From a virus: a stretch of 37,365 nucleotides of DNA. The DNA lies in the IMG/VR virus record IMGVR_UViG_3300009160_000080, positions 1 to 37,365 of that record; one strand, given 5' to 3'. The position numbers and the translations under genes were made by a program. Every line of letters begins with the position of its first letter. Within the stretch, counting starts at the first letter, position 1. Below the pieces are notes generated by a model that was given only the letters and a program-made list of their open reading frames with translations, had not been told where the DNA came from and did not search any database. Positions 3,798 through 37,365 of the stretch are shown one piece after another.

Positions 3798-4475
3798 TTA
3801 AGCAGCGCGCGCGATTGCGGATGCTACTTTCTTGCGATTGCCGTGCGCTGGAAAGCCTATGATTGATTTGCGGTTCTGTTCCGCGCATAGGCCGCAGCTG
3901 GCGCACGTCACGTCGTCCGAGATGGTCGCCGGGCAGATTGCGACGTGCCGGCCAGCCGGGGTTTTTAGCGCCGTGACTTGATCCGATGGTAGGACAACCA
4001 CCACGGGCGCGCCAGTAGCGGCGAGCTCGTCGGCCATAGCAAGGTTATCGGCTGACAGGTTAACAGTGAAACCTTCCCGCAAGGCGATACGCACCATTGT
4101 TAGGTTTGCCAAGCTTGCCGGCTTGTGGGTGTAGGTAAACCCGCGCCGGCCACGGTTTGCCTTTACCAGTTCCCCGAATGCCAGCGGGTCAATATCGTTC
4201 CCGGCGCCGGGCAAGTCTCCGGCTTGGTTATGGCGCCAGAGGGTGCCTTTGGGGAGCCGGGCGATTTGCTGCATTGCTTCGGCCCATACCATACCGGCTT
4301 TCTTTTCAGTTACCTTGCGCCAAAACATAGCGAGCGGGCCACCTTCGGCATAGCAACCGGCGTTCTTAAGCGGGCAAGCCGTCGGGCATGTTTCCTCCGA
4401 TGATGTCGTGACGGGGATAGGGCCCGTCTTTTCGTTACGGGATACGCGTGTGAATGCGATGTGAGGGCGGATCAT
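3798..4475 (-). CDS. Cys-rich phage protein (DUF7227-like)
   Basis: A 225-residue protein starting MIRPHIAFTRVSRNEKTGPI. Two cysteine clusters are evident: C-P-x-x-C-P-L-x4-G-C-Y near residue 29, and C-P-x6-V-T-C-A-S-C-G-L-C near 186-201, as expected for a metal or Fe-S site. Between them are WRHNQAGDLPG and RRGFTYTHKP. I recall this as a phage family catalogued as DUF7227; from memory it may be a TIM-barrel relative of Gp37/Gp68 proteins, and the enzymatic activity is unknown. The start at 4475 is chosen because a G-rich Shine-Dalgarno ends five bases before it and it overlaps the upstream small gene as TAATG. Confidence 0.75.
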   Translation of the reverse strand: MIRPHIAFTRVSRNEKTGPIPVTTSSEETCPTACPLKNAGCYAEGGPLAMFWRKVTEKKAGMVWAEAMQQIARLPKGTLWRHNQAGDLPGAGNDIDPLAFGELVKANRGRRGFTYTHKPASLANLTMVRIALREGFTVNLSADNLAMADELAATGAPVVVVLPSDQVTALKTPAGRHVAICPATISDDVTCASCGLCAEQNRKSIIGFPAHGNRKKVASAIARAA

Positions 4476-4618
4476 TAGCGCCCCCCTTCCAGCGATGACC
4501 GGAGCCAGTGGAGGCGGCACTCGCGAGCGGCGATAATCTGCAAGGTTCCGATCAAACCGCGACGACCGTAGCGCGCGCCGCGGATGGTGAGGATCAGGGC
4601 TTTGACGGTGTAGAGCAT
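4475..4618 (-). CDS. 47-residue basic protein, first gene of leftward operon
   Basis: A previously easy-to-miss small gene starting MLYTVKALILTIRGARYGRR and ending HWLRSSLEGGR. AAGGAAA stands 8 bases before the ATG, and the stop overlaps the next ATG as TAATG, so coupling is likely. It is strongly basic (about ten Arg/Lys) with a short hydrophobic N-terminal stretch. It is the promoter-proximal gene, where phages often put host-takeover or regulatory peptides; its function is otherwise unknown. Confidence 0.6.
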   Translation of the reverse strand: MLYTVKALILTIRGARYGRRGLIGTLQIIAARECRLHWLRSSLEGGR

Positions 4619-4653
4619 TTGCGTTTCCTTTTGTTTAGCGTTTCGTTGGAGCC

Positions 4654-4682
4654 TTTATGCGCGCTTCAAATAGGCCTGTCAA
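4654..4682 (-). promoter_or_regulatory. Leftward promoter of the accessory operon
   Basis: On the minus strand a perfect TTGACA (4682-4677) is followed after 17 bases by CATAAA (4659-4654, four of six matches to TATAAT). Transcription would start near 4647, about 29 bases before the first ATG at 4618. The outermost iteron of the left cluster lies about 25 bases upstream of the -35 element, so the iteron-binding protein could also control this promoter. Confidence 0.5.
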
Positions 4683-4706
4683 CTAATCTTTTGCAGATAT
4701 CTCGAA

Positions 4707-4802
4707 TGTAGGTCACGGATAGTCATTGTGTAGGTCATGATGTAGGCTATTTTGGAGGGCAAATTCGTCAATGATTGCTAGGGTGTAGGTCATGTAGGTC
4801 AT
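4707..4802 (+). repeat. Left iteron cluster, five copies of TGTAGGTCA
   Basis: Direct copies of TGTAGGTCA (often followed by T) begin at 4707, 4729, 4741 (variant TGTAGGCTA), 4784 and 4793. The last two share one base. All point rightward. Similar 9-mers elsewhere in the window are single and inside genes, so the clustering is specific to this region. Confidence 0.85.
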
Positions 4803-4899
4803 GGGTTTGTAACTTTCAAAAATGAAATGATATATGTATAATAGTTAATGCTGTTTGCTGGTGGCGCGCACGCATTGTCACCAGACTATCCCCGTGCCA
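4803..4899. other. AT-rich core between iteron clusters (candidate origin)
   Basis: Bases 4804-4857 are AT-rich in an otherwise GC-rich genome and include ATGATATATGTATAATAG. A rightward -10-like TATAAT lies at 4837-4842, with only a weak -35 (TTTCAA at 4814-4819). Flanked by inward-facing iterons, this is the expected position of a duplex-unwinding element or an operator-controlled promoter. The origin role is inference from architecture. Confidence 0.45.
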
Positions 4900-4983
4900 T
4901 AGCCTACATGACCTACAGCTTAGAACCTAAAGGGTTATTCGGCGTTTTCCATGACCTACATGGTGACCTACACATGACCTACA
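4900..4983 (-). repeat. Right iteron cluster, five inverted copies (TGACCTACA)
   Basis: Inverted copies lie at 4900-4908 (variant TAGCCTACA), 4909-4917, 4952-4960, 4964-4972 and 4975-4983. The spacing mirrors the left cluster: an abutting inner pair, then a gap of about 33 bases, then a pair spaced by 12, then an outer copy. Two mirrored clusters of five suggest a symmetric nucleoprotein complex. Confidence 0.85.
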
Positions 4984-4995
4984 GTCCCAACGCAT

Positions 4996-5047
4996 GGCAA
5001 TTGTGTCCGAATTAAGGCAAAGCCTGCCACAATTGAACACAATTGCC
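4996..5047. repeat. 11-bp perfect inverted repeat with nested hairpin
   Basis: GGCAATTGTGT at 4996-5006 pairs with ACACAATTGCC at 5037-5047. The loop contains a smaller AGGC/GCCT hairpin (5015-5025) and another CAATTG. It could be an operator dyad or an extruded structure; no T-tract follows, so it is not a terminator. Confidence 0.6.
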
Positions 5048-5130
5048 CGCCTGCCCGCCTGCCCGCCTGCCCGGCCCGCCTGCCCGGCCCGCCTGCGCCT
5101 GCCCGCCTGCCCGCCTGCCCGCCTGCCCGC
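5046..5130. repeat. CCCGCCTG tandem array (minus-strand G4 motifs)
   Basis: An 8-bp unit CCCGCCTG is repeated, with CCCGGCCCGCCTG variants in the middle. CCC runs at 5046, 5054, 5062 and 5070, and again at 5102, 5110, 5118 and 5126, are spaced by five bases. The minus strand therefore twice satisfies the G3N5G3N5G3N5G3 G-quadruplex pattern. Confidence 0.8.
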
Positions 5131-5171
5131 GTGCCGGCGGCCTGGTGCCGCGTGCCGGCGGCCTGGTGCCG
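5130..5171. repeat. Perfect 21-bp tandem duplication
   Basis: A 21-base unit beginning CGTGCCGGCGG is repeated exactly twice, at 5130-5150 and 5151-5171, with no spacer. The perfect identity implies recent duplication or strong constraint. Confidence 0.9.
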
Positions 5172-5175
5172 CCTG

Positions 5176-5211
5176 CCCGGCCCGCCCGGCCCGCCCGGCC
5201 CGCCCGGCCCG
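5176..5211. repeat. Four perfect copies of CCCGGCCCG
   Basis: The 9-bp unit CCCGGCCCG occurs at 5176, 5185, 5194 and 5203 without interruption. Its CCC runs are separated by only one or two bases, so the minus strand could form very stable short-loop G-quadruplexes. A plus-strand G-run (5225-5238) follows directly. Confidence 0.9.
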
Positions 5212-5257
5212 CCGGCGCCCAGCCGGGGGGAGGGAGGGCCCGGCCAGCCGCCGGCTC

Positions 5258-5345: not shown

Positions 5346-5783
5346 ATGAGCTACCATTCTCTGCCCTACGAGCCGCGCCGGCTTGAAGCGACTGAGGCGC
5401 GGCTAGAAGCGATATACGGCGCGGCCAAGCTCGGCCTGAAGGGCGACACCCTGGCGCTTGCCGCCGGGATGCTGCCTGTCGAATACCGCCGGCTACGCGA
5501 GTTCGACGCCGCAGCCGAGTTTGCCGAGCTGAAGGGCCGCGCTGACAGCGAGTACGCCGTGTCCAAGACCCTGCACGACGCCGCGCAGGCGGGCGACGCC
5601 AAGGCGGCGCTGGACATCCTCAAGCACGCGCACGGCTGGGTCGCCAAGCAGGCGCTGGACATCAACGTGGACCAGCGCATCAGCATCACGCAGGCGCTGG
5701 AGATGGCGCAGACGCGCGTGCTGGAGATCGTCGACACGACGTACACGGCGGTCGAGAACCAAATGGAGCAAGAACTTGGATAG
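5346..5783 (+). CDS. Putative terminase small subunit
   Basis: A 145-residue protein. The N-terminal half carries a helix-turn-helix-like stretch (AAKLGLKGDTLALAAGMLPV, then EYRRLREFD). A middle segment reads KTLHDAAQAGDAKAALDILK, followed by ITQALEMAQTRVLEIVDT as a C-terminal helix. Length, HTH plus helical oligomerisation region, and position two kilobases before the large terminase all fit a DNA-recognition small terminase; sequence alone does not prove it. The ATG has no visible Shine-Dalgarno and may be leaderless. It overlaps the next gene by eight bases. Confidence 0.65.
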   Translation: MSYHSLPYEPRRLEATEARLEAIYGAAKLGLKGDTLALAAGMLPVEYRRLREFDAAAEFAELKGRADSEYAVSKTLHDAAQAGDAKAALDILKHAHGWVAKQALDINVDQRISITQALEMAQTRVLEIVDTTYTAVENQMEQELG

Positions 5784-34942: not shown

Positions 34943-37294
34943 ATGGCTGACCGCCGCACTTTCATCGAATACATCACCGGCCTAGCAATGGAGGGCGAGA
35001 CAGCCCTGCTGGTGCGCCAGAAGCCTTGGATGCGGGACAACGAGCTTCAGTACCATGCGGACGGGACGCTCAAGTGTACCTGGCCGGCGTACCTACCCGC
35101 CCATAAACTGAAGGACGGCCAAGCCTGGTACGCCAACACGGGCGCGTTCATATTGGACCGTTTCGTAGACGGCAAGCTGTCGGCGGCCCGCGACTATTGC
35201 GACTTCGTTCTGGTTATGATGCTGGACGACATCGGCACCAAGTCCAAGACCCCGCCGCTGGCGCCGACGTGGATCATGGAGACATCGCCGGGGTCGTTCC
35301 AGTGGGGGTACGGTTTCAGCGACCAGCCCACCAAGGGCCGGTTTACTGCCGCCATCCGCGCCATAGCCGAGGCGGGCTACACGGATCCAGGCGCCACGAA
35401 CGCCGTCCGCAACTTCCGTCTGCCGGGGTCGGTCAACCTCAAGCCTGGGCGCGACCTGTTTGCGTCGCGTTTGGTCGAGTTCCACCCGGAGCGGGAGTAC
35501 ACCCTAGACGAGATATGCGCCGCTCTGGGCGTCACGCCGGGCGAGGAGGACGGCGGCGACGTTAAGGCGATCACCCTGCGCGACACCGGCAAGGACACGG
35601 TCCTGCAATGGCTGAACGACAAGGGTCTGGTCCTGTCCCAGCCGAACGGCGAGGGCTGGCTGTCCATCGTCTGCCCTAACAGCGCCGCGCACACGGACGG
35701 GATCGTCGAGGCCCGCTACAAACCCTTGGACCGCGCCTTCGACTGCTTCCACGGTCATTGTGTAGACCTGGACAGCCGCGCGTTTCTGGACTGGGTAGCC
35801 GAGAACGGTGGCCCGCGCGCGACGCCGGGGCTGCGCGACGAACTGCTGGCCGAACGCATGGCGCTGGCGATGGACAAGATCGCGCCGAGCGAGGCGTTCC
35901 CAGACCGCGCCAAGGAGTTTATCGCCGAGGTCGAGCGCAAGGAGCGCGGGCGCGTCGAGAAGTCCGCCTGGTTTGAACGTTACGCCTACATCCAGACGGA
36001 TGACGCTTACTTCGACATCCAGGAGCGCGAGGAGGTCACCCGGTCGGCATTTAACGCCGTCTACCGTCACATTGACTGCCGGTCGGTGCATAACCCCAAG
36101 CTGCGTGTGCTGCCGGCGCACTGCTTTGACGAGAACCGCCAAGCCGCCGGGGCCAAGGCTCTCACCGGGATCACCTACTCCCCCGGCGACAGCGTCTTCG
36201 TGGCCCGCGAGGGCCAAGTCTACGGCAACCGCTGGATCGACGCGCGCCCTGACGTGTCCGCCGTCCCGTCGGGCGACGTGTCGCCCTGGATGGCGCACTG
36301 CGAGACGATGCTGCCCGAGCCTAGCGAGTTGCAGCACTGCCTCGACGCTATGGCGTTCAAGGTCCAGAACCCCAAGGTCAAGGTCAACCACGCGATCCTG
36401 CACGGCGGCGACGAGGGCTGCGGCAAGGATACGATGTGGGCACCGTTCATCTGGGCCATCGCTGGCCCGCACCACCGGAACCGGTCGATTGTAGATAACG
36501 ATAACCTTTCTTCGCAGTGGGGTTACGACCTCGAAGCCGAGGTCATCATCCTGAACGAACTCAAGGAACCCGAGGCCCGCGAGCGCCGCGCTCTGGCTAA
36601 CAAGCTCAAGCCCATCATCGCGGCGCCGCCGGAGACGCTGACGGTCAACCGCAAGGGCCTCCACCCCTACCAGATGGTCAATCGCCTGTTCGTCCTGGCG
36701 TTTACGAACGACCCCCTGCCGATCAGCATACCCACCCAGGACCGGCGCTGGTTCTGCCTGTGGTCCACTGCCCCGCGCATGGACGCCGACGCAGCCCGCG
36801 ACCTGTGGGCCTGGTACGGTGCCGGAGGGTTTGCGACCATCGCGCGGTGGCTGCACGACCGTGACGTGTCCAGGTTCAACCCTGCTGCTGCGCCTGCCGT
36901 CACCGACTTCAAGATCAACATGGTCGAACACGGCATGAGCGGCGCCGAGAGCCACCTGGTCGATCTGATGCGGTCGCGTTCCGGGCCTTTCGCCAGCGGC
37001 ATCTCGGCGGGTCCGTTCCATATCCTGCTGGACCGGGTTATGCAGTCCGGTCTGGTGCCCCCGCATATCAAGATCCCGACGGCGGCGCTGCTTCATGCGT
37101 TCAAGGAGGCAGGCTGGCGCGACCGTGGGCGCGTCTCGACCCGCGAGTTGACCACCAAGCGGCACATATTCTCGGCGCGGTCGTTGGATCACTTGAACAA
37201 CTCGGACGCGCGCCGGATAGCCGAAATAGAGGCGACCGGCGGGGCCGTGTCGCCCCTTCGGGTGCTGGGTGAAAAGGTAGTGCCTATCAGGTGA
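34943..37294 (+). CDS. Primase / SF3 helicase (DUF5906-type)
   Basis: A 783-residue protein. The N-terminal third is a RepB/primase-polymerase-like domain (PTWIMETSPGSFQWGYGFSD, AVRNFRLPGSVNLKPGRD). A putative zinc site follows (CPNSAAHTDG near 244 with DCFHGHC near 266). The SF3 helicase has Walker A GGDEGCGKDTMW (about 487-498), Walker B EVIILNELKEPE (about 533-544) and NRLFVLAFTNDPLP as sensor region. It combines primer synthesis with unwinding, like the P4 alpha protein, which also binds iterons. GGAGACGAA precedes the ATG. A diverged copy of its 3' end lies at 1-49. Confidence 0.9.
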   Translation: MADRRTFIEYITGLAMEGETALLVRQKPWMRDNELQYHADGTLKCTWPAYLPAHKLKDGQAWYANTGAFILDRFVDGKLSAARDYCDFVLVMMLDDIGTKSKTPPLAPTWIMETSPGSFQWGYGFSDQPTKGRFTAAIRAIAEAGYTDPGATNAVRNFRLPGSVNLKPGRDLFASRLVEFHPEREYTLDEICAALGVTPGEEDGGDVKAITLRDTGKDTVLQWLNDKGLVLSQPNGEGWLSIVCPNSAAHTDGIVEARYKPLDRAFDCFHGHCVDLDSRAFLDWVAENGGPRATPGLRDELLAERMALAMDKIAPSEAFPDRAKEFIAEVERKERGRVEKSAWFERYAYIQTDDAYFDIQEREEVTRSAFNAVYRHIDCRSVHNPKLRVLPAHCFDENRQAAGAKALTGITYSPGDSVFVAREGQVYGNRWIDARPDVSAVPSGDVSPWMAHCETMLPEPSELQHCLDAMAFKVQNPKVKVNHAILHGGDEGCGKDTMWAPFIWAIAGPHHRNRSIVDNDNLSSQWGYDLEAEVIILNELKEPEARERRALANKLKPIIAAPPETLTVNRKGLHPYQMVNRLFVLAFTNDPLPISIPTQDRRWFCLWSTAPRMDADAARDLWAWYGAGGFATIARWLHDRDVSRFNPAAAPAVTDFKINMVEHGMSGAESHLVDLMRSRSGPFASGISAGPFHILLDRVMQSGLVPPHIKIPTAALLHAFKEAGWRDRGRVSTRELTTKRHIFSARSLDHLNNSDARRIAEIEATGGAVSPLRVLGEKVVPIR

Positions 37295-37295
37295 C

Positions 37296-37365
37296 TTAGA
37301 CGTCGCTATTCAGCCCGGCCAGCAGGGAACCATAGCCAATAATATCTAGGATACTGTCCAGGTGC
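37296..37365 (-). CDS. C-terminus of a second DUF6378 protein (partial)
   Basis: The minus strand encodes HLDSILDIIGYGSLLAGLNS then DV and TAA at 37298-37296; the gene runs off the window end. The DUF6378 protein at 20-307 contains HLDSILDIIGYGSLMA at the same place. Over a 45-base block, 40 bases agree and most differences are synonymous. Its stop lies one base beyond the primase-helicase stop, whereas the other copy overlaps the primase tail by 30 bases. Confidence 0.85.
   Translation of the reverse strand, partial: HLDSILDIIGYGSLLAGLNSDV

Follow-up and report, generated by a model that had tools for sequence, protein, structure and literature searches.

The virus record IMGVR_UViG_3300009160_000080 from IMG/VR (positions 1 to 37,365; the window, meaning the whole 37,365-nucleotide stretch analysed) carries at positions 4707-4983 a two-armed array of short repeats (iterons) that very probably serves as the replication origin of the phage, its 9-bp boxes being bound by the phage's own primase-helicase through a C-terminal winged helix. 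Judged from sequence, the best reading is an iteron origin of the kind described for phage P4 and the phage-inducible chromosomal islands (PICIs), with the helicase as the recogniser. The first-pass annotation had proposed an origin bound by the phage's superfamily 3 (SF3) primase-helicase by analogy with P4 alpha, and this proposal is now strongly supported by covariation between boxes and protein, by replication of that covariation in held-out loci and by a P4-like spacing of the boxes.

Eight boxes in the window match TGTAGGTCA exactly, four on each strand, and the sequence is absent outside the array. With one mismatch allowed there are 18 sites in the window (shuffles: mean 4.3, largest 10), and within positions 4651-5000 the best 9-mer has eight copies compared with at most four in 1000 dinucleotide shuffles. 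Two further boxes, at 4741 (plus strand) and 4900 (minus strand), read TGTAGGCTA and are identical to each other, with two mismatches to the others; the facing arms first described as five copies against five are thus real, but contain eight exact copies rather than ten. Counted from the core outwards, start-to-start spacings are 9, 43, 12 and 22 bp on the left and 9, 43, 12 and 11 bp on the right, so the mirrored order first noticed is exact in three steps and fails in the outer one (22 vs 11). The core had also been called AT-rich with a TATAAT: this hexamer lies at 4837-4842 and the left part of the core (4802-4856), a putative unwinding element, is 76% AT, a value matched by 0.03% of the window's 55-bp stretches, whereas the core as a whole is 58% AT. 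The features of the array are as follows.

4707 to 4715, plus strand: iteron box L5, exact TGTAGGTCA
4729 to 4737, plus strand: iteron box L4, exact TGTAGGTCA
4741 to 4749, plus strand: variant iteron box L3, TGTAGGCTA
4784 to 4792, plus strand: iteron box L2, exact TGTAGGTCA
4793 to 4801, plus strand: iteron box L1 (inner left), exact TGTAGGTCA
4802 to 4899, no strand: core between the facing inner boxes, its place and length class recurring in 50 loci
4815 to 4842, plus strand: sigma-70-like promoter match TTCAAA-16-TATAAT, possibly a chance match (one found vs 0.5 expected)
4858 to 4884, no strand: inverted repeat CTGGTG-15-CACCAG within the core
4900 to 4908, minus strand: variant iteron box R1 (inner right), TGTAGGCTA
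4909 to 4917, minus strand: iteron box R2, exact TGTAGGTCA
4952 to 4960, minus strand: iteron box R3, exact TGTAGGTCA
4964 to 4972, minus strand: iteron box R4, exact TGTAGGTCA
4975 to 4983, minus strand: iteron box R5, exact TGTAGGTCA

Relatives were collected through a portal-protein search (80 related contigs) and a primase-helicase search (80 further loci), followed by refinement of the boxes. Most portal-found relatives with enough upstream sequence have a both-strand 9-mer cluster approximately 3-4 kb upstream of the portal gene; these clusters lie just upstream of terS, and the 9-mer varies by lineage. Conservation in relatives had been set beforehand as a check on the array, and its place and its two-arm layout around a core of approximately 90 bp are indeed kept in about 50 relatives, though the 9-mer mostly differs. 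Box classes include TTGTCCACA, TGACCCAGA, TGACGTCC, TAGCCTAGA, TGACAATTT and TGACTAACA, with TGACCTACA as the class of the window and TGTGGACAA as a further class elsewhere; in most of them the first half of the box is better conserved (ATGAC or ATTGTC) and the second half is variable.

In a set of 50 nonredundant loci, the two inner boxes point towards each other and their starts are separated by 85-120 bp; gaps of 76-130 bp separate 52 of 126 facing neighbours compared with 12 of 89 back-to-back ones. The AT content of the core by quarter is 0.76, 0.80, 0.59 and 0.54, its left half being approximately 78% AT against 49% for whole loci. In 39 of the 50, the two inner right boxes abut at a spacing of 8-9 bp. 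Measured from the inner-left box, left-arm boxes peak at approximately 9, 53, 66, 76 and 87 bp, a pattern with which the left arm of the window (9, 52, 64 and 86 bp) agrees. While the left arm and inner right pair recur across these loci, the outer right arm does not, and the mirroring 9-43-12 of the window's right arm is matched by none of the relatives listed in this comparison. Exact mirror symmetry is therefore not the conserved feature, a role for it as the functional essence of the array is not supported, and the exact mirror spacing appears peculiar to this phage. A block resembling ATGTTATAAGCCAGCGATTTAAAA or GGCGACTTGAAAAC lies near the inner right box in many relatives, L137, L164 and L145 among them; it is not apparent in the window and is possibly a priming or second recognition element.

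The proposed initiator is a protein of 783 amino acids. Its helicase domain matches PF19263 above cut-off (E 2.2e-10) and includes the Walker A motif GGDEGCGKDT, while its N-terminus matches the RepB primase family PF16793 below cut-off (E 9.6e-5; 22.8 bits vs 24.3). The NrS-1 primase (6k9c; E 4.5e-5, aa 478-604) is its sole solved relative by sequence search. AlphaFold2 predicts the element order H-E-H-H-E-E-H for the C-terminal domain, with a helix-turn-helix and a beta-hairpin wing, and a Foldseek search of a viral library places this domain at the C-terminal end of NrS-1-polymerase-like helicases from several phages. The gene is present in 17 of 20 records. In the window, it is laid out as follows.

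34943 to 37294, plus strand: primase-helicase, 783 aa, with RepB_primase-like N-terminus, SF3-type helicase (DUF5906) and C-terminal winged helix
36905 to 37252, plus strand: C-terminal winged-helix domain, aa 655-770 (AlphaFold2 predicted local distance difference test score 83; Foldseek)
37136 to 37159, plus strand: wing loop STRELTTK, aa 732-739, the loop of the predicted beta-hairpin wing, in which residues 732, 734, 737 and 738 covary with box positions 4-8

No protein other than the primase-helicase, TerS, TerL and PolA is encoded in nearly all loci that carry an array; the universality of the primase-helicase arises by construction, as loci were selected by it, though that of an alternative regulator would not. 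Box similarity was compared with protein similarity in 183 sliding segments of 30 columns over these four proteins, after accounting for how distant the other proteins are. A single covarying peak emerged, at aa 712-758 of the primase-helicase (partial r 0.335, 0.28 and 0.26; family-wise p 0.002-0.008), the next-best segment reaching r 0.128 (p 0.58). Among individual pairs, residue 734 covaries with box position 8 (r 0.62) and residue 732 with positions 6 and 5 (r 0.59 and 0.55), against a permutation maximum of 0.49; C8 accompanies Arg734 in 22 of 24 loci but only two of 25 with other residues. Wing classes pair with boxes throughout: K-S-R with TTGTCCACA or TTACCCACA, H-S-V with TGACCCAGA, H-S-R with TGACCCACA, G-S-T with TAGCCTAGA, G-S-V/S with TAGCCTAAA/C, A-S-H with TGACAATTT, M-[SA]-R with boxes such as TGACTAACA or TGACTTACA, N-S-K with TGACGTCC (one with TGGCAACTT) and the S-T-R of the window with TGACCTACA. 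Over aa 732-738 the wing of the window reads STRELTT, while KSREFDT occurs naturally in another class. Classes H-S-V and H-S-R differ at residue 734 and their boxes at position 8, as a modular reading demands.

The covariation was replicated in held-out loci, which came from a second primase query in another clade, had not been used before and were compared through unaligned weight matrices. The strongest signal again lay in this segment of the primase-helicase (r 0.50, 0.38 and 0.32; next unrelated segment 0.18; median 0.04). Helicase pairs 88-98.5% identical have a median box similarity of 1.0 when residues 732 and 734 are the same and 0.58 when they differ, and distant pairs (<75%) still reach 0.87 with the same residues vs 0.58. 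In the pairs L246/L229 and L254/L217, for example, the helicases are 97-98% identical over aa 371-690, residues 732 and 734 differ and the boxes are unrelated. A search with DNA only, using the abutting pair of the window (TGTAGGTCATGTAGGTCA), returned 14 contigs, 13 with this TerS nearby; ten of the 14 carry this helicase at 54-57% identity, and all ten have Ala/Ser732 with Arg734, a combination found in one of 49 training loci, the window itself.

The arrangement resembles known iteron origins in several respects. Phage P4 (NC_001609) likewise has short iterons, the 8-bp GGTGAACA, in both orientations, which are bound by the C-terminal winged helix of its primase-helicase (PMC4234260, citing Ziegelin and Lanka 1995; Yeo et al. 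2002), and the window shares with it the clustering of such iterons beside an AT-rich stretch. The six type-1 repeats in the P4 origin lie at 10, 53, 75, 86 and 96 bp from the innermost, distances that coincide with the left-arm peaks of the relatives, which had been defined before the comparison with P4 (an equal fit was reached by 107 of 200000 random sets and, in held-out loci, by 0 of 50000). The left arm of the window fits P4 in part (9, 52, 64 and 86), and in loci L141 and L157 box order and orientation equal those of P4. P4 differs in its iterons, in having a Toprim-type primase rather than a RepB-like or archaeo-eukaryotic primase (AEP)-like one, and in requiring a distant second cis site (crr), where the window has a single site with two arms, its second cluster facing the first.

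In the origins of PICIs, including the Staphylococcus aureus pathogenicity islands (SaPIs), an AT-rich region is flanked by two sets of iterons, which vary by element (Fillol-Salom et al. 2018, PMC6092414), and this flanking is shared by the window. In contrast, PICIs are satellites whose origin lies immediately 3' of rep, while the window represents a whole tailed phage with the array 4.8 kb from the helicase gene, and the residue-level covariation found in its family sets it apart from PICI/SaPI origins. A DNA-binding domain that covaries with the origin, cognate pairs being required, is known for the RepA_N initiator of the PICI-like elements (PLEs; PMC8263062); this protein belongs to a different family, lacks a predicted helicase or primase and has semi-palindromic iterons of approximately 30 bp. 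In domain composition, the window protein resembles ORF904 of pRN1, with a putative AEP-like primase, an SF3-type helicase and a C-terminal winged helix (PMC4234260; PMC7102993), and also NrS-1-type phage prim-pols, whose solved helicase domain is related to its own by sequence (PMC7102993). The pRN1 authors proposed assembly on a stem-loop for such proteins (PMC4234260), unlike the iterons used here; a pRN1-like stem-loop origin through a conserved core hairpin was considered and rejected (core stems 5.8 vs 5.2 in shuffles).

Several observations count against an origin read by the helicase. The primase-helicase shows no detectable homology in sequence to P4 alpha (BLASTP E 5.9; hhalign probability 0.1%), and the Foldseek matches of its C-terminal domain in the PDB are winged helices but weak against solved structures. 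The training iterons were aligned by hand (those of the held-out test were not), and the family-wise p-values of 0.002-0.008 are optimistic because the relatives are non-independent observations. Exact prediction of the 9-mer in held-out loci is only fair: the nearest neighbour by four residues ranks the true box first in 12 of 39 (mean rank 3.8 of 23), several misses being close variants, compared with eight of 39 (mean rank 5.3) for the nearest overall relative. Finally, a clear array was not found in seven distant loci.

Of the other explanations, the one that survives best is compatible with an origin read by the helicase: a dual element, at which helicase occupancy also represses the flanking promoters. 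Coupling of origin and repression is common in iteron replicons, and the array is located between divergent modules; the helicase gene itself is 4.8 kb off, and a dual role is a tentative possibility. A symmetric operator alone, as the first-pass annotation had alternatively suggested, with repressor or activator sites between divergent modules and no role in initiation, is very unlikely: divergent genes and one promoter-like match in the core speak for it, but the covarying protein is a replicative primase-helicase and not a regulator, and no regulator gene is common to all array-bearing relatives. Nor does anything point to the GcrA-like protein once suggested as a binder, which is not among the genes common to these relatives. 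Slightly less credible still is a pac or cos packaging site bound by the TerS encoded just downstream. Although terS directly follows the array in the relatives examined, the TerS helix-turn-helix is identical or nearly so despite different boxes (L059 ATGACGTCC, L062 ATGACAACT), the best TerS segment does not covary (0.103; family-wise p 0.85) and inverted symmetry would not be expected of a directional signal. Least probable is an origin read by DnaA, of the host or as a phage-encoded domain IV protein: class TTGTCCACA matches the Escherichia coli DnaA box at eight of nine positions, L212 has TTATCCACA and a domain IV-like protein is encoded in four of 20 records (L090 4904-5200 and the records of L006, L034 and L063), but this protein is absent from the window and most relatives, most classes (ATGACGTCC, TAGCCTAGA, TGACAATTT) are unlike the DnaA box and box sequence covaries with the helicase.

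If the array is an origin recognized by the helicase, the winged helix would physically bind the 9-bp boxes, and those on either side of the AT-rich core would load helicase assemblies in opposite, facing orientations. The core would melt, the same protein unwinding the DNA and its N-terminal domain priming, such that the origin may fire bidirectionally. The invariant part of the domain (the helix) probably contacts the better conserved ATGAC half of the box and the wing loop (aa 732-739) would read the variable half, in which case two to four substitutions would shift the address of the origin.

The window genome carries its own terminase and portal genes, and the array sits between divergent gene modules, upstream of terS. 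Contig L115, 99.5% and 99.1% identical on its two sides, joins window position 37365 to position 66 onwards; because it runs across this end-to-start junction, the genome is circular or circularly permuted, and the primase-helicase gene therefore lies approximately 4.8 kb upstream of the array. GC skew is uninformative as an origin marker in the window because gene orientation likewise flips at the array. The nearest recognised genes are as follows.

3798 to 4520, minus strand: DUF7227 gene, first recognised gene left of the array
5346 to 5783, plus strand: terminase small subunit homologue, first gene right of the array, which does not track box sequence

The interval between array and terS includes a GC-rich tandem repeat, (TGCCCGCC)n, at 5044-5213, and relative L003 has (CTCGCCCG)n in the equivalent place. 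The GcrA-like protein (PF07750; 801-1313, minus strand) suggests an alphaproteobacterial host, and a search of host genomes gave two fragmentary matches only, in uncultured bins. Four cultured phages with distant homologues were also screened for arrays, and a clear both-strand cluster beside the primase gene was present only in Burkholderia phage BcepNazgul. Here, nine GGTCCGAAT-like boxes (at most one mismatch) lie on both strands just after the primase gene and form a candidate origin:

L284 locus 49354 to 49779 (NC_005091 about 56853 to 57278), both strands: BcepNazgul box cluster

In Vibrio phage 1.185.O (L282 28060-28349), there is an intragenic 27-bp tandem repeat, annotated in the record as CRISPR spacers.

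While the kind of origin (P4/PICI) is already known, the wing-to-iteron code is the new part. On balance, we favour the view that a few wing residues constitute a modular amino-acid-to-base code, through which two to four substitutions and a concerted change of approximately ten boxes would re-address the origin, giving many mutually orthogonal phage replicons that are built on a single scaffold and have an origin geometry in common with P4. From sequence alone, this analysis identifies a probable origin, and the protein likely to read it, in a large group of phages most of which are uncultivated. It also offers a naturally occurring set of changes in the DNA specificity of a replicative helicase, seen against an almost constant background. 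Complete tailed phages would, moreover, have an origin laid out as in PICIs and P4, an arrangement that the published view confines to PICIs. The question thereby raised is what drives such rapid change of origin address, with satellites, relatives infecting the same cell and nucleases directed at origins, for example Odn (PMC8263062), as candidates.
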